Source of the DNA: Oehlia diaphana
Taxonomy: Eukaryota > Glomeromycota > Glomeromycetes > Glomerales > Glomeraceae
DNA length: 17,271 nt
Assembly: GCA_003833135.1 (NCBI GenBank)
Contig: QZLH01000616.1
Coordinates: forward strand, 1-17,271
Direction: 5' to 3'
Part shown: positions 659-17,271 of the stretch, piece by piece
How positions within the stretch are numbered: position 1 is the first letter of the stretch
How the letters are laid out: each line of letters opens with the position of its first letter
Translations under genes and position numbers: made by a program
Notes under the pieces: generated by a model
Database searches by the model: none
What the model saw: the letters and a program-made list of their open reading frames with translations, nothing else
Told to the model about the DNA's origin: nothing

Positions 659-3600
659 ATGAAACCAAATAAAGGTATATTGCAAAATAAAATTTTTTTG
701 ATGGAATATAAATATGAATAATACTTAAATTATTTATTTTTAGAAAAATTGAAAAAAGGTTTATACGGAACATGTATAGAATGTAAACAGCCAAGAAGCC
801 ATTATCAATGGTGTCAACCATGTGAACGGAAACGATGCGAAGAAAATTTTAAAAATTGGAGTGGAGATAAAAAAATTGATGAGTTCCTTCGAGATGCACA
901 ATTAAAATCTATAAGACCTCAAACTTTTCTAGAATGGATTCCTTATGACAAACTTAAAAAAATAAATATATTGGATACAAAATCAGAAAATAAGACAAGT
1001 ACAGTATATTCAGCTATATGGAAAGATGGACCAAGAATCAAGTGGGATCAACAGAACGAAAAATATGGGAGAGTTGAAACTAAAGTTACTATCATAAAGA
1101 AGGATGGGGATGATGTTGACCAAATTAAAGAAATTTTAAATGAGGTGAATTGTTAATAATTTATTTTATTTTGAATTTTCAACTCCACTTGTTAAAATAA
1201 CGGTTCTTTTTTATTATAATTATAACTATATAGCTTAAGATATATTTGAAGTGTCATACTCAAGAATATGCTCTATTAATTCAATTCTATGGAATCTCTA
1301 AACATCCTGTCAGTAATGATTATTTTATTGTAAAGCAATTTCATAAAGACGCTTCGTCATTGGCAGAGTACATTTCCCATAATTTCAATAATTTAAACTG
1401 GGAGATGAAATTGCGTTTACTACTTTGTCTTTCTGAAGATTTAAAAGCATTACACAATGCTGAATATGTTCATAGATATTATAAGCATCCATTTAGTGTA
1501 TTAGTATTTAATAATAGCTTTTGTGCAATAGAAACTTTCTTGGAATGCAAAGCTCTGCCTTTATCAAATACAGATGAAAAAGGTGGATGGTATCTTTATA
1601 AGGCACCAGAAATTTTGGTTCGCCAATCTTATACAAAAGCCAGTGATATTTATTCATTTGGAATTATTATGCATGCTATTGGAACTGAAACAATTCCTCC
1701 TCGTAATTTCGCATCACCTTTTAATCATTTTCATCAGTGTTTAACTTTTGATATTTGTTTTGGATTAAGACCACATATTCCAGATAATATACCAATAAGT
1801 TTCAAGAACTTAATGGAAAAATGTTGGAATACTGAACCAGATTTACGCCCTAATATTCATGAAGTACACAATGCTTTATTGAACTTATGGTCATCAATTT
1901 ATTATTATGACAAAAATTTAACTTCATTAAATTTAGTATATTTAGAATATCTTGCTGCAGACAATAATAAAGATTATTCTAAATCTAATTCCCAAGAAAC
2001 GATTACTAAAAAAGCAGAAAATAGCAATTTAGAACCATTAGAAACGATCACTAAAAAAGCAGAAAATAGCAATTTAGAACCATTAGAAATGATTACTAAA
2101 AAAGTAGAAAATAGCAATTTGGAACCATCAGAAATGATCAAATATATTAAAGAAAATAGTATAGTTAAAGTTTTTAGTATCGATGAATTAACAATGATGA
2201 CTCCTATTGACAATGACCAATTTTGCAAGATTTCAAAAGCTACTTTGAAAATAGAAAAAACAGATATTACAGTTGCTTGCAAAAGATTTAAAAGTACCCG
2301 ATTAGATAAAACGTTCCTTCATGAATTAAAGATGCATCATAAAATTTTATATTTTTGTTTAAGAATTCTACGTGTAATAGGCATAAGTTTAGGTAAGTTT
2401 TTTTGCTTAAGTATTTTTATTGCTTTATAACAAATTCTCATTTGTTATTTATTTACAGATGAAAATACTAAAGAATATTTGCTCATTATGCAATATGCCG
2501 ATGGTGGAAATTTACGCCAGTATCTTAAAGGTCATTTTTTAGAATTAACTTGGGATGATAAATTAAAATTTGCTTATCAAATCACTGAAGGTATTAAATA
2601 TCTTCATGATGAAGATGTTCTTCATCAAAATTTACAACCTAAAAATATATTAATACATAAAAAAGAAGTTAAGATTATGCTTGATATTGCAAAAAGTACG
2701 GAATCTGATTATTTGAACGAAATGATTCCATATGTTGATCCCAAAATTTTAGATGATCGTTCTTACGAATATGATAAGAAATCAGATATTTATAGTTTAG
2801 GAGTTCTTATGTGGGAATTATCTAGTGGTAGACCTCCCTTTATTTATAGTAAGACTGAGAAATCTTTAGAAATTCAATTAATAATAAGTAGTCATAGAGA
2901 AGAATTAATTCCTAATACCCCTAATGAATACTCGGATTTATATAAATCATGTTGGAATCCTGAACCAAGTGAAAGACCATCTATTAATCAAGTATTTAGT
3001 AAATTAGGAAAAGTGTTATATACTCAAACAAAAACAAATTTGAAGCCAGAAGAATTGATCAATTCCATTAAAAATAATTATTTAGCTATAATTATTAATA
3101 TGGATGAATTATCAAACGTCAACGGAGACACTATTTGGAAAAAAAAAAACGGTCCCTTTCCAGTTATTTGTAAAAAATACAAATTTGTTCAATTAAATGA
3201 AGCTTTCATTCATAAATTAAAGACGTATAGAAAATTCAATTTCTGTTCAAGAATTATACGTATATTTGGTATAAGTTTAGGTAAGCTCATATAATCGTAA
3301 ATATTGTATTTATGTAATGAATATTTATTTATTATTATTTTATTTGCAGATATAAATGCTAATGAATTTTTACTGATTATGCAACATGCTAATGGTGGAA
3401 ATTTACGCCAGTATCTCAAGGATCATTTTTCAAAATTAACTTGGGATGATAAAATAAAGTTAGCATATCAAATTACTGAAGGAATAAAATTTCTTCATGA
3501 TGCAGATATTATTCATCAAAATTTGCACTCTAAAAATATAGTATTACACAATAAAGAAGCTAAAATTATACTTGATATTGTAAAAAGTATAGAAACTGAT

Positions 3601-5357
3601 TATTCGAATAATTATGAAATGATTTCATATGTTGATCCTAAATTTCTAGAAAACTATTCTTATGAATTTGATAAGAAATCGGATATATATAGTTTAGGAG
3701 TTCTTATGTGGGAATTATCTAGTGGTCATCCTCCTGAATTTGTAAATATTTCAAAAAATCATATAATTAATGGTTATAGAGAAACCCGAATTTCTAATAC
3801 TCCTAAAGAATACTTTAATTTATTTGAATCATGTTGGCAATCGGAGCCAAATGCAAGACCAACAATTAATCAAATTTTCAATAAATTAGAAGTAATGAGT
3901 AAAAACTCAGGGTTAGAGGTGTTTGATTTTATTATAAAAAATAAGTTAGTTAAAGTTATTAATAAAAGTGAATTATCAGATATGAAAAATATTGATGGAG
4001 GTAATTTTGGCATTATATCAAAAGCCAAATGGATAAAGACAAATAATTATGTTATTTGTAAAAGATTAAAAAATAATGAATCAATTAATAATAAGCCGAC
4101 CGAAGCTTTTATTCATGAATTAAAAATGCATGGACGACTGAATTTTTGCCAAAGAATAATACGTATTCTAGGTATAAGTTTAGGTAAGCTTAAATTATAT
4201 ACCAACATGATATATTGACATTATTCAAATCATAATAAATGAAGATTCATTTTAAATTTATTTATAGATGAAGAAACAAAAGAATATTTACTCATAACGG
4301 AGTGTGCTGATGGTGGGAATTTACGACAGTATCTTAAACAAAAGTTTTTAGAATTAACTTGGGATGATAAAATTAAGTTAGCTTATCAAATCACTGAAGG
4401 AATAAAATTTCTTCAAGGAGAAAAAATTCTTCATCGAGATTTACACTCTGGAAATATAGTAGTACATCAAGGAGAAGCTAAAATTATTGATCTTGGTATT
4501 GCAAAAAGTATGGAAACTCAAACAAATATTCATTCAGGTGTATTTGGAGTAATTGCGTATGTTGATCCTAAACGATTAGATAATTGTTCTTATGAATACA
4601 ATGAGAAGTCTGATATTTATAGTTTAGGCGTTCTTATGTGGGAAATATCTAGCGGTAATCCTCCTTTTGCTGATGGATATATTAGTGAAAATCTTTTAAA
4701 AATTGATTTAATAGGTGGCCGTAGGGAAAAACCAGTACCTGATACACCTGACGAATACTTGAAATTATATAAATCATGTTGGGATGGTAATCCAGATGCA
4801 AGGCCAACCATTAATAGAGTATTTAGTATATTAGTTAAATTAGGAAGAGAGATGAGTATTCAAGACTTCCAAGATATCAAATGTGATGACGACGATATAC
4901 AAAGTAACTTGCAATAATAATTTTTATTAAAAAGACATTAATTATTAACGCGATAAATAATTTTTTAAATTTTATATTATAAATACTGTATTTATTGTAT
5001 AATAAATTAATTATTAGGCATTCAAGATAATAATGACAACGATACTGATGCACAAGGTAAAAAATTTTTATTTATAATAATTAAAGTTATATAAGTAGTA
5101 ATTTCCTTTTTTTAATAATAAAATTTTTACAAAATGAACTACAGAAGTAAACGTTAATGTTGAAGCAGGTAATCAATATATATGCTTTTTTGTTTTAATT
5201 TTTATAAGTTCATATTATTTATAAATTGTTTATAGTCAAATTTATAGAAGATTATATAAATGATGATTTAGACAGTAAGTTTATTCACAATAACTTATTA
5301 TTTTGAGATATAGAATAAATAATTTACTTTGTATTTTTAGTTCCCGATGACTGTTGA
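659..5357 (+). CDS. Four-domain kinase-like protein: three pseudokinase domains plus one active-looking TKL-type kinase domain
   Basis: Spliced model, 1328 codons. Exons: 659-674, 744-1144, 1234-2392, 2459-3280, 3350-4183, 4268-4903, 5018-5056, 5145-5168, 5236-5274, 5341-5357. All introns are GT-AG, 66-114 nt, and every junction keeps the frame. The ATG at 659 is the first after an in-frame TAA at 614. An N-terminal CxxC...WCxxC pair (C16, C19, C29, C32) and an FKNW motif are typical of glomeromycete kinases. Domain 1 (about 67-350) lacks a glycine loop, has HRY (219-221) for HRD and no DFG, but keeps APE (263-265). Domain 2 (about 439-715) keeps VACK (K489) but has HQN (581-583) and a damaged DFG. 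Domain 3 (about 720-985) keeps ICK (K764) and also has HQN (855-857) and a damaged DFG. Domain 4 (about 1000-1270) looks catalytic: GGNFG (1016-1020), K1037, HRD (1133-1135), N1140, DLG (1152-1154). The tail is acidic. If the intron at 4904 is retained, translation stops at 4915-4917 after 1293 residues. The kinase identity is sure; exon 1 and the tail are less so. Confidence 0.8.
1996..2130 (+). repeat. Three 45-bp (15-residue) repeats in the linker between kinase domains 1 and 2
   Basis: Three head-to-tail copies start at 1996, 2041 and 2086. Each encodes E-[TM]-ITKK-[AV]-ENSNLEP-[LS]; the first two copies are identical in protein. A partial fourth copy follows from 2131 (EMIKYIKENS) and merges into the N-lobe of domain 2. 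The segment is polar, Lys/Glu/Asn-rich and probably a flexible spacer. Near identity in DNA suggests a recent, length-variable repeat. Confidence 0.9.
2393..4903 (+). repeat. Tandemly duplicated exon-intron units of the kinase gene
   Basis: Introns 2393-2458, 3281-3349 and 4184-4267 all interrupt the same Asp codon (G|AT) just after the sequence GISL, between N-lobe and C-lobe. The exon between two such introns therefore holds the C-lobe of one domain and the N-lobe of the next. Exons 2459-3280 (822 nt) and 3350-4183 (834 nt) are clearly related, and 4268-4903 is the C-lobe half of the same unit. Long stretches are nearly identical, for example around the DKKSDIYSLGVLMWELSSG coding segments. 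The domains multiplied by duplication of one phase-1 unit. Confidence 0.85.
4904..5357 (+). other. Proposed chain of tiny 3' exons (39, 24, 39 and 17 nt) encoding an acidic tail
   Basis: After donor GTAACT at 4904 I find exons 5018-5056, 5145-5168, 5236-5274 and 5341-5357. They are bounded by attag, acag, atag and tttag acceptors and by gtaaaa, gtaatc and gtaagt donors. Every junction is phase 1, and the joined frame is open until TGA at 5355-5357. The encoded tail is Asp/Glu/Asn-rich and ends in IPDDC. The alternative is simple read-through to the TAA at 4915. Both forms could exist as splice variants. Confidence 0.6.
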
Positions 5358-6740: not shown

Positions 6741-9700
6741 CTAAAATAAGATATATTCATTCAAATCTTCGCTTACTAGCGTTTCACTCAATTGTACACT
6801 AGTTTGTGGATAGTTACTTTCAAATATTTCATTTAATTCTTTACTAGTAAAATTAAGTAAGCGACTTGAATAACATGATTTAGGATGAGATTGAGTAATA
6901 AGATTGTTATGCTGCCCAATTGGTGCATTTATAAATTCCATAATGTTGCTTTTTAATTCTTCACCGACTTCATAAGAATGGAAAATCCATTTTCTAATAA
7001 TATCTAAAACTTCTCCAGAAGTTGGCCTTTTTAATGGATCCTCTTTCCAACATTTTTTCATCAAATCCACATAACATTGTGGAGTATTTTCAATAATTTT
7101 AGGACGTTCACCTTTACAAATATTTAAACTAAGTTGAATATCATGTGCTCTATTATTAAATGGTGGTACTCCAGATGTAAATTCCCACATAATCATAGAA
7201 AAACTATATATATCACTAGCTGGAGTATAAGAGCTGCCTCTTAATATTTCGGGTGCCATAAATGGTATAACACCATACTTTTTCAAAAACGATTTTACAG
7301 GATGACATAATCCGAAATCATTAATATAAACTTTATCTTCATTCTCATCATCATTATGTAATAAAATATTGCCATCATGAAAATCACAATGAACAATATT
7401 TTGATTATGTATCTCATTAAGCCCAGAAATAATTTTGTGCAATATACATAATTTTTGTTTCCAATCCTTTTTGATTATTCTTGTTAAATTTTCTCTTAAA
7501 TTACCCTTGTTTGCATAATCTATTACTACCATATAATTTGAAGTATTTGGATCTTCTGTAAATCCATAAAAATTAATAATTTCAGGTGAATTTAAGCAAC
7601 TTTCATGATATTCCCACTATAAAAACAATAATAATATGTGTATAAATAAATTATAATTTAAATTAAAAAATAAATAATATACTATCATACTTCATTTAAA
7701 AATTCATCTAAATTTTCACTTAAATTTCTTTGACATTTTAAAATTACTTCTCTATCTCCATCATTATTTAACCAAATAGCTTTGAATATAGTACCAAATC
7801 CTCCTTCATTTAAATATTCAACATTTTTAAATTTATTATAAGGAATCCATTTTAATTTTTTTTCAAAAATAAATTTATCCAATATTGCATTTTCACTTTT
7901 TCCAAATCTATAAATTTAAATAATTAAAATTATATTATAATTTATATGAAATTTACACTGAATTTTAAATTAAATAATACTTACTCTAAAATTCAAATAG
8001 AAATTTAATTAAATATAAGTCTTAGTTTTGCAAATATATATAATAATCTATAATTCACAACTTACCAACTAAATAAAATTAAAGATATTTTTTAAATAAA
8101 GAATTCAGATAACAAATAAATATTATATAATATTATATAAATACTGTATATAATAAAAGAAATAACCAATAACTTACATGCTATATTATTGATGATTTTA
8201 AATATTAAGAGTTTAAATTAAATGTAAACATTATAAATATATATATAATAGAATTGAATAAATAACTTACAAGCTATATTTTTTTTTTAAAAAAAAATAA
8301 AAGATAAGAATTTTAAATATTATATAAATATAAATATGTAATAAATAAATAATTCTTATAACTTACCTCCTATTTAATTAAATAATTTTTTATATAAAGA
8401 AATTAGTTAGTTTAAATTATATGCAAATGTTATATAAATATGTAGTAATAAACGGAATTAAATAAATAACTTATAACCTACCAACTAAGAGAAATTACCA
8501 ATTTTTAAAATAAAGAATTTAGTTAATATAAATATTATATAGATATATAATAATAGTACTAAATAATATAACTTACTTCCTATATTATTTAAATTTTTAA
8601 ATAAAGAATTTAGGTTAAATTATATAATAAATATTATACAAATATGTAATAATAGAATTAAATAAATAGCTTATAACTTACCGACTGAAAGAAATTACCA
8701 ATTTTTAAATAAAGAATTTAGTTAGTTTAAATTATATGTAAATATTATATAAATATGTAACAATATAATAACAAATAACTTACAATCTAATAGTAATTAC
8801 CAAATAATTTTAAAATAAAGAATTTAATTAATGTAAATATTAGTAATAATAGAAAATATAAATAACTTACTCTCTCCTATTTTAAAGTAGTTTTTAAATA
8901 AAGAAATCAATTAATTATAATATTATGTAATATGCAGTAACAGAATTAAATACATAACTTACTTCCTACTATGTTATCAAGTATTTTTAAATTAAAGAAT
9001 TTAGTTAGTTTAAATTATATTGTAAACTTATATAGATATGTAATAATAATAGAATTATGTAAATAACTTACTTCCTATATTATTAAACATTTTAAATAAA
9101 AATTTAGTTAGTTTATATTATATGCAAATATTACATAAATATCATGTAATAACAGAATTAAATAAATAACTTGCCCCCTACATTATTAAAAATTTAATTA
9201 GTATATTATATATAATCATGAGTAAATATATAGTAATAACAGAATTAAATATATAACTTACAATCTAAAATAAATTATCAAATAATTTTTAAATAAAGAA
9301 TTTATGCAATTATTATATAAATATAATAATAGAATTAAATAATTAAATAAATAACTTACTCTCTATATTATTAAATAATTTTTAGTTACCAATGTTAATT
9401 TAATTATGTATAAATATATAATAATATAGTAATTTAAAAATAAATAACTTACGATCTATATTGTTAAGTAAAGAATTAATTTAAATTATGTAAATATTAT
9501 ATAAATATATAATAATAATAAAATTAAATAATACTGTAACTTACAAGCTATATTATTAAATAATTTTTTTAAATAAAGTATTTAATTAGTTTAAATTATA
9601 TATAATATATAAGAATAATAAAATTAAATAATACTGTAACTTACAAGCTATATTATTAAATAATTTTTTAAATAAAGTATTTAATTAGTTAAAATTATAT

Positions 9701-12106
9701 GTAAATATTATATAAATTATATAATAATTAAAGTTATAAATAACTTACTCCCTATATTATTAAAGAATTTAATTAATATAAATTGCATATAAATATCATA
9801 TTATATGATAATAGAATTAAAGAAATAACTTACAATCTAAAATAATTGTCAAATACTTTTAATAAAGAAATTATTTAGTTAAATTACATGTAAATATATA
9901 ATAAATATGTAATACTTAACAAGCTATATTATTATTTAGTTAAATTGTACGCAAATATATATTGTATATATAAATATATAATATTAGAATTAAAGATATA
10001 AATAAATTTAGTTAGATTAAATTATGCAAACATTATATAAATATGTAATAATAAAAATTAAATAAATAACTCACACACTATATTATTAAACAATTTATTT
10101 AGTAAAGAATTTAGTTAGTTTAATTAATATGTAAATATTATATAAATATGCAATAATAGAAATGAATAACTGAAATAACTTACAATCTATATTATTAAAT
10201 AATTTAATAATTTTTCAAATAAGGAATTTAGTTAACTTGATATAAATATTATTTAAAATGTAATAAATAAATAGCTTTTAACTTACCAACTAAAGAAATT
10301 GCCAAATAGTTTTTTAAATGAAGAATTTAGTTAGTATAAATTAATGTAAATATTATATATATATGATCTAATTAAATAATTTACCTCCTATTTTATTAAA
10401 CAATTATTTATATAGAGAATTTGGTTAGCTTAAATTATATGTAAATATTATATAAATATGTAATACAAGAGTTAAATAAGTAAACTTACCAACTAAAAAG
10501 AAATTACCAAATAATTTTTAAATAAATAATTTAATTATTATTACATAAAATATAATTAATAATAGAATTAAATTTAATAACTTACAATCTAAATGAATTA
10601 CCAAATAATTTTAAACAAGGAATTTAGTTAGTTTAAATTATATATAAATATTATATAATTATGTGATAATAAAATTAAACAATCACTTACAAGCTATATT
10701 ATTAAATGATTTTTAAAATAAATAAAAATTTAGTTAGTTTAAATTATATATAATAGATAATAATAAAATTAATATAAATAACTTACAAGCTATATTTAAG
10801 AAGAAAAAACTTAGTTAGTTTAAATTATATGTGAATATAAATATATAATAGTAAATTAAATAAATAACTTACAAACTATATTATTAATAATTTTGAATAA
10901 AAAATTTAGTCAGTTTAAATTAATGTAAATATTATATATATGTAATAATAGGATTAAATAAATAACTTACTGTCTATATCAATTAAATAATTTTTTTAAA
11001 GAATTTAATTAGTATAAATTCTATGTAAATGTTATATAAATACGTAGTAATAGAGTTAATAAATAACTTACCCCCTATTAAATAATTTTTTAAATAAAGA
11101 ATTTAATTAGTTTAAATCATAAGTAAATATTTATACAAATAGAATTATATAAATAATTTACCTCCTATTTTATTAAGTAATTTTTAAATGAATAATTTAG
11201 TTAGTTTAAATTATATGTAAATATTACATAATATGAATTGAATAACTTATAACTTACCAACTAAGAGAAATTAGTAAATAATTTGTAATGGAGATTAGTT
11301 AGTTTAAATTATATAAATAATGGAAATATAGATAACATATAACTTACACCCTGTAGATATTATTAATTATTAATTAGTTAGATATAAATATAATACAAGA
11401 GATTAAAATGTATTACTTACAATCTAAATATTTAATCATTTAAATAATAAATACGATTAGTTTGTATCATATAAAATATTAAAACAGACGAATATAATTT
11501 TAAACATTGTAACTTACCATCTGTAATATAATTAGTTATTTAAACAAAGAGTTTAGTTATCTGAATATTATGTAAAATAATTAAAGTAAAGAACTAGAGA
11601 TTTAAAAAACTGATAACTTACTAACTATAGTATTATAAATCATTAAATGAATTATTTAGTTACATAAATATAACAAAAATAACAAGTAATTATTTAATTA
11701 AAGATAACCTATTAACTTACGAGCTAAATTATTTAATATAATTTTACATAATATAGTTAGTTTAAATTATAGTTGTATATTAGGGTATAATTATGGATAG
11801 TATTTAATTTATTTACAAAATAAAAATTTAATATTTCAGCTTGTTTGATATACCTTTAGATTCGGTGCTACTTTCTTCAAATTCCTCAATATCACTTCCT
11901 CTGAATTCTTCAATTTCACTTTCTTCAAATTCCTCGGTATTACTTTCTTTAGATTCCTTGGTACTACTTTCTTCAACTTTCTTGGTATTACTGGAAACTA
12001 GTTCTATTATATTGTAAATTTGTTTAAAATTTTAGAATTCTAATTTGTATTAAATGCTCATGCTATATTTACCTTTATCTTTACGCTTTTTTTTAAATAG
12101 AGGCAT
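6741..12106 (-). CDS. TKL-type protein kinase with a 39-microexon N-terminal linker (43 exons)
   Basis: Spliced model, 464 codons: exon 1 12106-12073 (ATG), exon 2 12003-11854, 39 microexons 11723-7985, kinase exons 7907-7691 and 7616-6741 (TAG at 6743-6741). Base counts 34+150+118+217+876 = 1395, exactly 465 codons. Residues 1-11 carry a basic KKKRK cluster, possibly a nuclear localisation signal. Residues 12-61 form a Glu/Ser-rich acidic segment. Residues 62-101 come from the microexons and are rich in Gly, Ser, Phe, Tyr and Trp. The kinase domain (about 125-400) has glycine loop GGFG (136-139), K158, HCD (249-251; Arg of HRD replaced by Cys), N256, DFG (D273) and APE (294-296), so it looks active. 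The C-terminus (about 400-464) is of the RLLNFTSKELNEI kind seen in this fungal family. The kinase exons are certain. The N-terminal half rests on frame and splice-signal consistency, not on transcripts. Confidence 0.75.
7985..7985 (-). other. Candidate single-nucleotide exon (A)
   Basis: On the minus strand the acceptor ...gaattttag (ending 7986) is followed by one A (7985) and then the donor GTAAGT (7984-7979). This lone A plus the G carried from the previous triplet and the first A of the kinase exon (7907) makes GAA. It shifts the frame by one, as needed to enter the kinase frame. The two longer alternatives I tested, from acceptor-like AGs upstream, run into stop codons. One-nucleotide exons have been reported in plants, so the idea is not unprecedented. 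Confidence 0.6.
9490..9720 (-). repeat. Two nearly identical neighbouring microexon units
   Basis: The units carrying the ctt microexons at 9545 and 9645 are exactly 100 bp apart. Both share the same unusual flank (aaataatactgtaac before ttac on the + strand) and the same aataaagtatttaattagtt body, with only a few differences. This is the youngest-looking duplication in the array and shows that units are still being copied as whole intron-exon blocks. Confidence 0.75.
9924..10074 (-). other. Double-length intron containing a unit that lost its microexon
   Basis: The distance between the ctt (9921) and tgt (10075) microexons is 154 bp, about half again the usual spacing. The interval holds two branch-site blocks (ttagtta... 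near 9936 and ttagttagatt near 10008) but only one exon-flanking block. The segment that should carry donor, triplet and acceptor is missing between about 10000 and 10008. This reads as a unit deleted for its exon. The 130-nt intron at 11853-11724 may have a similar history. Confidence 0.5.
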
Positions 12107-16579: not shown

Positions 16580-16652
16580 CTTCAAGAATTCTCTTCTTTT
16601 ATATTTCCTCACCTTTTAATTTTAAGGTACAATTAATAATAAATTTCAATTT

Positions 16653-17176
16653 ATGACCTTATTAAGAATAAAATTTAATCTTAAGAGGATTTTAACCCTC
16701 TTTATCTCATTATTTGTGATTGGATCTGTAGCAATTGAGACAAGCGTTCACACCGTTAGTGGGGATAGTCTTCATTTGAAAGATTATACTAATGAAATTC
16801 AAAATTTTAATGAACCATACAAATTTATTAAAACCGATTATTTTAAACCAATAACATATCTCTCTTTCACTAATAAACCTGTAACTCGTTATTATCAATT
16901 GACATTAAAAAAGATTAAAATGTCACCTAATGGTTTTGAAAGAACTGTTTGGAGTGTAAACGGTCAACATCCTGGTCCACTTATTCAAGCAAATAAAGGA
17001 GATAGACTTGTTATAATGTAACAAACAACTTTGATGATCCGGCAAGTATGTTTGTTTATAATTTATAATTGTTTATATTAGTACTTAAAAAGACTGACAT
17101 TGACATATATTCATTATTATTTTTAGCTGTTCACTGGCATGGTATGTTTCAACATGGTACTGTTAAGCCAGTTCTT
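16653..17176 (+). pseudogene. Multicopper oxidase (laccase/ferroxidase type), 5' part, frameshifted
   Basis: The ATG at 16653 opens a hydrophobic signal peptide or anchor (about residues 12-28), then a first cupredoxin domain with FERTVWSVNGQHPGPLIQAN and GDRLVI. Multicopper oxidases oxidise iron or phenols while reducing oxygen at four copper atoms. The frame then meets TAA at 17019-17021. One base further on, the expected continuation VTNNFDDPA is present (17018-17044), so one base, probably an A, is missing near 17013-17017. A donor GTATGT at 17046 and an acceptor ending at 17126 join in phase to TVHWHGMFQHGT, which holds the copper-binding HWHG (17132-17143). The usual following YDGV.. 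segment is absent: the frame either stops at 17186 or enters another intron (gttaag at 17162) that leaves the window. The family is sure. Whether this is a dead gene or a sequence error is open. Confidence 0.65.
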
Positions 17177-17271
17177 GTATGCTTATAAAAATAAGCTTAT
17201 GTGTATATGGTAAGCAGAAGGAATTATAAATGACGGTAAATGCGTAGTGAAATAAAATATAATAAAATACT

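Follow-up and report, generated by a model that had tools for sequence, protein, structure and literature searches.

Organization of the kinase locus

The window analysed here is a 17,271-nucleotide (nt) stretch of the genome of the glomeromycete Oehlia diaphana (contig QZLH01000616.1 of assembly GCA_003833135.1, positions C613:1-17271 in the numbering used below; genome searched, 108.8 Mb in 1672 contigs). Its minus strand carries a protein kinase gene in which two 5' exons are separated from two kinase exons by a run of related units, each setting a very short stretch of sequence between a 3' and a 5' splice site. Reading these units one by one gave 38 of the AG/NNN/GT type (11723 to 8066) and a single-base unit (7985), and the 39 minus-strand units noticed in the initial annotation are thus borne out as 38 three-base and 1 one-base microexons. 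The exons are listed below in the order of the gene; slashes mark exon borders, and phase 1 denotes the reading in which a codon consists of the last base of one exon and the first two bases of the next.

12073..12106, minus: exon 1 (ATG..., 34 nt, ends in phase 1), from the open reading frame (ORF) and donor AAAG/GTAAAT
11854..11997, minus: exon 2, acidic Ser/Glu-rich N-terminus (144 nt, ends in phase 1), donor AAAG/GTATAT
8066..11723, minus: microexon array, 38 three-nt exons, from unit-by-unit reading
11721..11723, minus: microexon 1, CTC
11622..11624, minus: microexon 2, TTA
11518..11520, minus: microexon 3, ATG (start codon in the deposited model P0001)
11421..11423, minus: microexon 4, ATT
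11348..11350, minus: microexon 5, GGT (microexons 1-6 read LNDWF in phase 1)
11258..11260, minus: microexon 6, TTG
11162..11164, minus: microexon 7, GAG
11072..11074, minus: microexon 8, GGG
10971..10973, minus: microexon 9, ACA
10873..10875, minus: microexon 10, TTT
10787..10789, minus: microexon 11, CTT
10691..10693, minus: microexon 12, CTT
10586..10588, minus: microexon 13, ATT
10490..10492, minus: microexon 14, TTG
10385..10387, minus: microexon 15, GAG
10287..10289, minus: microexon 16, TTG
10184..10186, minus: microexon 17, ATT
10075..10077, minus: microexon 18, TGT (donor GTGAG)
9921..9923, minus: microexon 19, CTT (weak donor GTTAAG; 154 bases from the preceding unit)
9834..9836, minus: microexon 20, ATT
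9749..9751, minus: microexon 21, GGA
9645..9647, minus: microexon 22, CTT
9545..9547, minus: microexon 23, CTT
9453..9455, minus: microexon 24, ATC
9360..9362, minus: microexon 25, AGA
9262..9264, minus: microexon 26, ATT
9175..9177, minus: microexon 27, GGG (GC donor, GCAAGT)
9072..9074, minus: microexon 28, GAA
8963..8965, minus: microexon 29, GAA (an upstream AG gives six-base TAGGAA, 8963-8968; phase 1 open both ways, by hand)
8871..8873, minus: microexon 30, AGA (six-base alternative GAGAGA, 8871-8876)
8784..8786, minus: microexon 31, ATT
8682..8684, minus: microexon 32, TCG
8577..8579, minus: microexon 33, GAA
8482..8484, minus: microexon 34, TTG (donor GTAGG)
8367..8369, minus: microexon 35, GAG
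8271..8273, minus: microexon 36, CTT
8178..8180, minus: microexon 37, CAT
8066..8068, minus: microexon 38, TTG
7985, minus: one-base exon A (TTTTAG/A/GTAAGT); codon GAA (Glu) from the last G of microexon 38, this A and the first A of the kinase exon
7691..7907, minus: kinase exon 1 (217 nt); kinase part identical to the deposited Rhizophagus diaphanus protein P0001 over 363/364 residues
6741..7616, minus: kinase exon 2 including the stop codon (876 nt); PF07714 match in P0001

Exactly 3 bases lie between the AG acceptor and the donor in 38/38 units of the window, which are spaced 73-154 bases apart and use 32 GTAAG donors, 2 GTAAAT and one each of GTGAG, GTAGG, GTTAAG (9923) and GC (9177); two units (8965, 8873) have an alternative acceptor 3 bases upstream. 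Exons 1 and 2 both end in phase 1 and the one-base exon restores the phase of the kinase exon (7907), so that the link drawn in the initial annotation between an ATG-started acidic N-terminus and the kinase holds at both ends with the spliced frame open. The coding sequence (CDS) as modelled is 1386 bases long (461 codons plus stop), and begins with the predicted N-terminus MPLFKKKRKDK. The 1395 bases (465 codons) first proposed are not those of this model, although they can be reached: an exon-2 acceptor 6 bases upstream gives 1392, and the six-base option of one unit adds the rest. Microexons account for 115 of the 1386 bases and the two kinase exons for 1093. In P0001, the product deposited for the same gene, Pfam returned PF07714 (E 1.9e-41) and PF00069 (E 1e-38), that is, kinase-type families only, and neither NACHT nor ankyrin domains were found. 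By eye, the HCD and DFG motifs are retained in the kinase domain of the window, which we take to belong to the tyrosine-kinase-like (TKL) class.

A family of arrays in the genome

A two-neighbour TAG/NNN/GTAAG pattern matched the genome 459 times (181 + 278), against 2 matches (1 + 1) for the pattern written backwards. A second pattern, in which the donor was fixed as GTAAGT and the exon base left free, found 39 genomic copies of a one-base exon ahead of a kinase exon; the base was A in 39/39, and the backwards control gave 0. The one-base closing exon proposed for the window is thus supported across the genome. Among the copies read, 29/30 have a 3-nt exon array upstream. The loci read were 30 of the 35 pattern loci (five repeat longer arrays) together with C46, and an array was present in 30 of these 31, comprising 503 exons; the remaining locus, L069, has broken kinase exons and no array. 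Masked bases occur in 5/30 loci, and seven loci (L043, L048, L056, L058, L059, L062 and L068) are shortened, with 3-6 exons found. Four arrays were read from end to end, with 33 (C30), 38 (C613), 46 (C106) and 51 (C58) exons according to the unit caller; C17 (42) and C46 (43) are possibly incomplete, and the others were covered over their final 1500 bases or less. In 23/30 loci L041-L070 the frame of kinase exon 2 stays open for at least 290 amino acids, two of the 23 crossing masked bases.

The ends of the arrays are conserved in phase 1. By eye, the exon corresponding to exon 1 in C58, C30 and C106 (MAQS..K) likewise ends in phase 1, and exon 2 of these loci has the same ACTAG/ acceptor and a phase-1 end, which was therefore seen in 4/4 loci checked, C613 included. 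The first six microexons read in phase 1 as LENWY (C58, C106), LENWF (C30) or LNDWF (C17, C613), so that five arrays start with the motif L-[EN]-[ND]-W-[FY]; L063 also has it, as CTC TAG AAA ATT GGT ATC reads LENWY in phase 1 despite the TAG exon. Both the motif and the exon-2 ends support the phase chosen in the initial annotation. The final microexon is TTG in 25/30 arrays, TCG in C46, L055 and L064, TCA in L068 and ATG in L050; the change from TTG to TCG is synonymous (Phe) in phase 1 and non-synonymous in phase 0. The commonest residues of the phase-1 segment are F, R, N, Y and W.

A different 3-nt exon array was observed in two kinase genes of C38 (L025 1296-3057; L026/L029 = C38:71500-74598, C38:87093-91844), where it follows the kinase domain. 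Its introns differ in sequence (...TTATATTACATTTTATAG/NNN/GTAAGTTTAT) and it includes a few 9-nt candidate exons; the exons, few in number and read by hand, are compatible with more than one phase. The same architecture may have arisen independently in these C38 genes.

Exon length and splice signals

Over the 30 arrays, the spacer between TTAG or ATAG and GTAAGT was 3 nt in 273/280 cases, 6 nt in 4, and 10, 15 and 17 nt once each. Two-codon units exist alongside the 3-nt units in L054, in which one wide gap (~730-1110 on the array strand) holds four successive six-nt exons, GGCGTT, CATCTT, ATAGCA and AGTATA. Introns average ~93 nt over all arrays and their lengths are spread over the three classes modulo three (167, 128, 149). 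Conservation was 0.95 for T at -3 and 0.93-1.0 for donor columns +1 to +6, the donor and acceptor columns being partly predetermined by the rules for calling units. A search of the 52 bases preceding the acceptor found CTAA in 83% of 492 units, compared with 31% in shuffles. The three exon positions carry 0.10, 0.53 and 0.01 bits, so that the signal is mostly intronic.

Two introns of the C58 array (L039, reverse strand; gaps ~3816-4029 and 2550-2797) share a related insert in which the inverted motif GGTGATGATCACC occurs; it appears to be a small mobile element that inserted into introns of the array.

Junction stops and the order of joining

Stop codons formed at exon junctions were counted over 444 neighbouring pairs lying at most 130 bases apart in the 30 arrays, and compared with shuffles of exon order within arrays (n = 5000); the 29 pairs more than 130 bases apart were excluded here and included in one variant. 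Phase 1 gave 1 stop in 444 joins against 22.1 ± 3.6 expected, with a minimum of 10 in the 5000 shuffles, while phase 2 gave 50 over the same pairs against 49.5 expected. When each distinct exon pair was counted once (n = 250), 1 stop remained against 13.3 (minimum 3 in 5000 shuffles). The three stop codons had the lowest z-scores among the 37 testable junction codons (TAG 0 vs 9.6, TGA 0 vs 5.9, TAA 1 vs 6.5), followed by GTT (13 vs 21.4). TAT (36 vs 35.4) and TGG (28 vs 20.9) were undepleted, and the loss of stops is therefore not a splice-site effect on a T followed by A or G. Similar results were obtained with the window array removed (1 vs 18.9), with strict splice sites (0 vs 16.0), with the wide gaps added (4 vs 24.0), with the partial arrays alone (1 vs 9.9) and after removal of six arrays, including L063, in which kinase exon 2 seemed broken or short (0 vs 19.1). 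The view in the initial annotation that the open path exceeds chance can be put to the window array by itself, in which phase 1 stayed free of stops in 0.57% of exon-order shuffles; in their actual order, the 38 triplets are open in phases 1 and 0 and have 3 stops in phase 2.

At larger distances phase-1 stops occurred as often as expected by chance: 20 vs 19.4 at lag 2 (joins that skip one exon), 15 vs 16.6 at lag 3, 14 vs 14.5 at lag 4, 13 vs 12.5 at lag 5 and 13 vs 10.9 at lag 6. Stops are thus nearly absent from joins between immediate neighbours only, which argues that neighbours are joined in order and in phase 1. It is therefore very likely, judging from these sequence statistics, that neighbouring triplets are joined in this way in the messenger RNA (mRNA), as the initial annotation had proposed for the window.

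The same counts bear on a combinatorial alternative in which each mRNA would hold a different subset of triplets, so that one gene would yield many linkers. Nearly all exons are symmetric (3 nt), so skipping would preserve the frame, and such splicing has been reported, in the passages available, for the NACHT-ANK (nank) genes of truffle. However, the joins that would arise by skipping one exon keep their stops, as the lag-2 count shows, which argues that products with skipped exons were not under the same selection as the product joined in full order. We regard combinatorial splicing of this kind as unlikely in these genes.

It could also be envisaged that the 3.7 kb between exon 2 and the kinase exon is excised as one intron, or stepwise without keeping the triplets, the units serving as spare or recursive splice sites. 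One large intron would be simpler for the spliceosome, and a zero-length exon is possible where units end in GAG/GT. Yet this would leave the avoidance of stops between neighbours, the constant exon length of three and the invariant one-base exon without a reason, and exon 2, ending in phase 1, would suffer a frameshift if joined straight to a kinase exon that needs phase 2. On these grounds we rejected excision as a single intron, which we consider highly improbable. A neutral tandem repeat, an intron satellite without a coding role, was rejected as well: although the units are AT-rich tandem repeats, such a satellite would be expected to show neither the stop depletion, nor the constancy of exon length, nor the invariant A, nor the conserved phase-1 motifs at the array ends, and it is scarcely credible as an explanation.

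Deposited protein models and the phase of the array

The first 22 residues of P0001 form an ordered subset of the 38 triplets, which 0 of 20000 random orders would permit, indicating that a gene-prediction pipeline placed those exons. In P0001, P0002 (from Rhizophagus irregularis), P0013 and P0029, N-terminal strings such as GLEGTLLELGLLIRI or GVGGGGVGGGG stand before LSKFGKS or a near variant. According to the reading deposited for P0001, the triplets are whole phase-0 codons and a 5-nt exon AGTAA closes the array; many exons are passed over, and translation starts within the array or in another exon. The four models with strings ending in LSK before the kinase speak for it, as do the open phase 0 of the window array and of C58 and the rarity of stop-triplet exons. 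Against this, phase 0 predicts no depletion of stops at immediate neighbours, where 1 was seen instead of 22, and exon 2 ends in phase 1. Stop-triplet exons do exist, as TAA in C46, TGA in L052 and TAG in L063 (3/503 exons), and each would end phase 0. The 5-nt exon would also have to use donors such as GTATTA, GTGTTA, GTAATA and GTTTTG, in contrast to the full consensus of A/GTAAGT (in which GTAAGT was fixed by the search patterns), and since phase 1 needs a closing exon whose length is 1 modulo 3, the one-base A fits and AGTAA fails. The phase-0 reading was thus rejected on the neighbour depletion, the stop-triplet exons and the phase of exon 2, and we hold it to be very unlikely. The N-termini of P0001, P0002, P0013 and P0029 are probably arrays read in phase 0, and wrong.

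Several points nevertheless weigh against ordered joining in phase 1. P0001 reads 22 of the 38 triplets as phase-0 codons, with a start at the ATG microexon and an apparent closing exon AGTAA/GTATTA, and P0002 resembles it after an acidic N-terminus; if P0001 rests on reads, some transcripts would be in phase 0 and the depletion of stops would need another cause, which we have not been able to imagine. Phase 0 is free of stops in both C613 and C58, and the scarcity of stop triplets as exons (3/503) has no fair null, the exon vocabulary being inherited by duplication. The phase-1 peptide was not found among deposited proteins with either of two queries (5 candidates, all with E >0.001, for one and 7 candidates, all with E >10, for the other, in a search that needed shared 5-residue words). 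The single remaining phase-1 junction stop, in L063, comes next after a GC-donor exon, and 3 of the 29 wider gaps give an apparent stop (C46, L054 and L046), those of C46 and L054 holding an extra variant-donor unit or six-nt exons; the wide gaps also mean that some units were lost or missed. Phase-2 stops were low at lag 2 (32 vs 42.8, sd 4.6; 30 arrays), for which no explanation was found. Finally, the arrays share ancestry, so that pairs are only partly independent, and L050 and L051 keep arrays despite broken-looking kinase exons.

A proposed mechanism and role

Taken together with the mechanism steps set out here, we are largely confident that the 38 triplets and the single base are spliced in order and all included, which would place a segment of ~38 amino acids, encoded by junction codons, before the kinase. 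The introns, short and AT-rich and with their GTAAGT donor, CTAA-type branch site and TAG acceptor, would hold the splicing information, and recognition would probably be by intron definition. Because an exon of 3 nt or 1 nt leaves no room for both of its splice sites to be bound at the same time, the introns would be removed successively; the authors of a report on a one-base exon in Arabidopsis argue likewise, in the passage cited (PMC4674806). The insert between exon 2 and the kinase exon is predicted to measure 115 bases (38 x 3 + 1), or 118 or 121 with the six-base options, giving the predicted linker ALNDWFGGDISSYFGVDLSYWTSYQNWGRKNFGIGASFE directly before FGKSENAIL; predicted tryptic peptides of the product are VEESSTK (as a control) and ALNDWFGGDISSYFGVDLSYWTSYQNWGR.

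Near-identical introns were found within arrays, and unequal recombination between them would let arrays grow, shrink and reshuffle, whole codons being added or swapped with the frame kept, while selection would purge changes that create junction stops. In C17, C30 and C58, exons agree best with those lying six units away (P 0.006, 0.004 and 0.021; 3/6 long arrays; 72 tests), which suggests that six-unit blocks were the unit of duplication in these arrays. Units whose flanking introns are 90-99% identical (gaps left out) can carry different codons; where intron bodies are at least 90% identical, the third base of the codon is the same in 0.32-0.64 of pairs (baseline 0.27). Both the periodicity and the differing codons within near-identical introns fit recombination between introns. 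The evidence for the recombination step, and for the sensor role considered below, is indirect: a few small P values are to be expected from 72 periodicity tests, and a block of ~15-30 bases around the codon also varies between units. A stronger claim, of mutation far more rapid in exon bases than in introns, was scaled back as alignments show the whole ~15-30-base block to differ.

The segment would then be hypervariable between fixed ends (L-[EN]-[ND]-W-[FY] ... F-E), and would precede a TKL-type kinase that is apparently active, judged by its sequence. Our best guess is that the segment may be a sensor or docking part, for example in nonself or partner recognition. More tentatively, the arrays might be a codon-shuffling device, in which dozens of kinase genes of this arbuscular mycorrhizal fungus carry one residue per unit and recombination at any point of the near-identical introns adds, drops or swaps single residues with the frame kept, giving a fast-evolving recognition repertoire convergent with the 3-bp exons of truffle immune receptors; we consider this conceivable, at somewhat less than even chances.

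Neighbouring features of the window

The adjoining gene on the plus strand (662-5350) has several tandem kinase-like domains by eye, one stretch of it (3982-4824) giving a kinase match; its region also contains a 45-bp repeat (1995-2140). Farther along the plus strand, at 16650-17210, an ORF start (..GFERTVWSVNGQHPGPLIQANKGDRLVI..) looks by eye like a multicopper oxidase, its frame seemingly broken.

Comparison with known systems

It is very likely, from the sequence evidence above, that 3-nt exons, dozens of them in a row, are faithfully joined together with a 1-nt exon in ~30 genes, a situation that would test the limits of exon recognition. An exact-term literature search on Rhizophagus microexons found no report of 3-nt exon arrays in Rhizophagus, and for the SP7 effector genes no microexons were found in the 12/15 text places covered. 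R. irregularis is credited with 2,533 kinases in the text cited (PMC10234402), and our results suggest that deposited models of part of this large Rhizophagus kinase family carry a wrong N-terminus.

Micro-exon genes of schistosomes, as described in the abstract cited, have many short exons of 3-81 bp with long introns and encode secreted proteins (PMC10526429). They resemble the present genes in having many short exons, down to 3 bp, but that abstract states no array of dozens of 3-nt exons, and here the short exons are a minor part of the CDS, in contrast to the kinase exons. One-base exons have been described in APC11 of Arabidopsis (PMC4674806) and in CYP621A of Fusarium (PMC12940212), and in the passages cited the phase depends on the one-base exon, as it does here; those are single genes, however, whereas here the 39 copies share the base A and nearly all those read have an array upstream. 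The LRR genes of Tetrahymena, in the text available, contain arrays in which each exon measures exactly 90 bp and junction codons occur. The likeness lies in tandem symmetric exons of fixed length, a junction codon at each join and diversification by recombination, but in Tetrahymena the exon is 90 bp long, whereas here it is one codon and all array codons are junction codons.

Tens of 3-bp exons as such are already known from one fungus, the truffle Tuber melanosporum, which belongs to a different phylum from the present fungus; the original description of the 3-bp exons of its nank genes is said to be that of Iotti et al. 2012. In the passages cited, the nank genes have tens or dozens of 3-bp exons and are alternatively spliced (PMC4986451, PMC3689799, PMC9815663, PMC10197012). 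As far as those passages go, the two systems share tens of 3-bp exons in an expanded family of a mycorrhizal fungus, and in both the exons lie where the signalling protein is variable. In contrast to the truffle genes, the present ones encode kinases rather than NACHT-ANK proteins, and the array precedes the kinase domain; the evidence here speaks for inclusion of every exon in order, for codons that span the junctions and for closure by a conserved one-base exon, and alternative splicing as in nank genes is unsupported by the lag-2 test. The initial annotation's suggestion of an undescribed architecture thus does not stand for the tens of 3-bp exons themselves, and stands, as far as our literature search reaches, for the class of gene and the lineage concerned, the phase of the codons, the closure by a one-base exon and the evidence that exons are included in order. 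Together with the truffle, the present fungus would represent a second lineage of fungi whose signalling proteins may diversify by one codon at a time.

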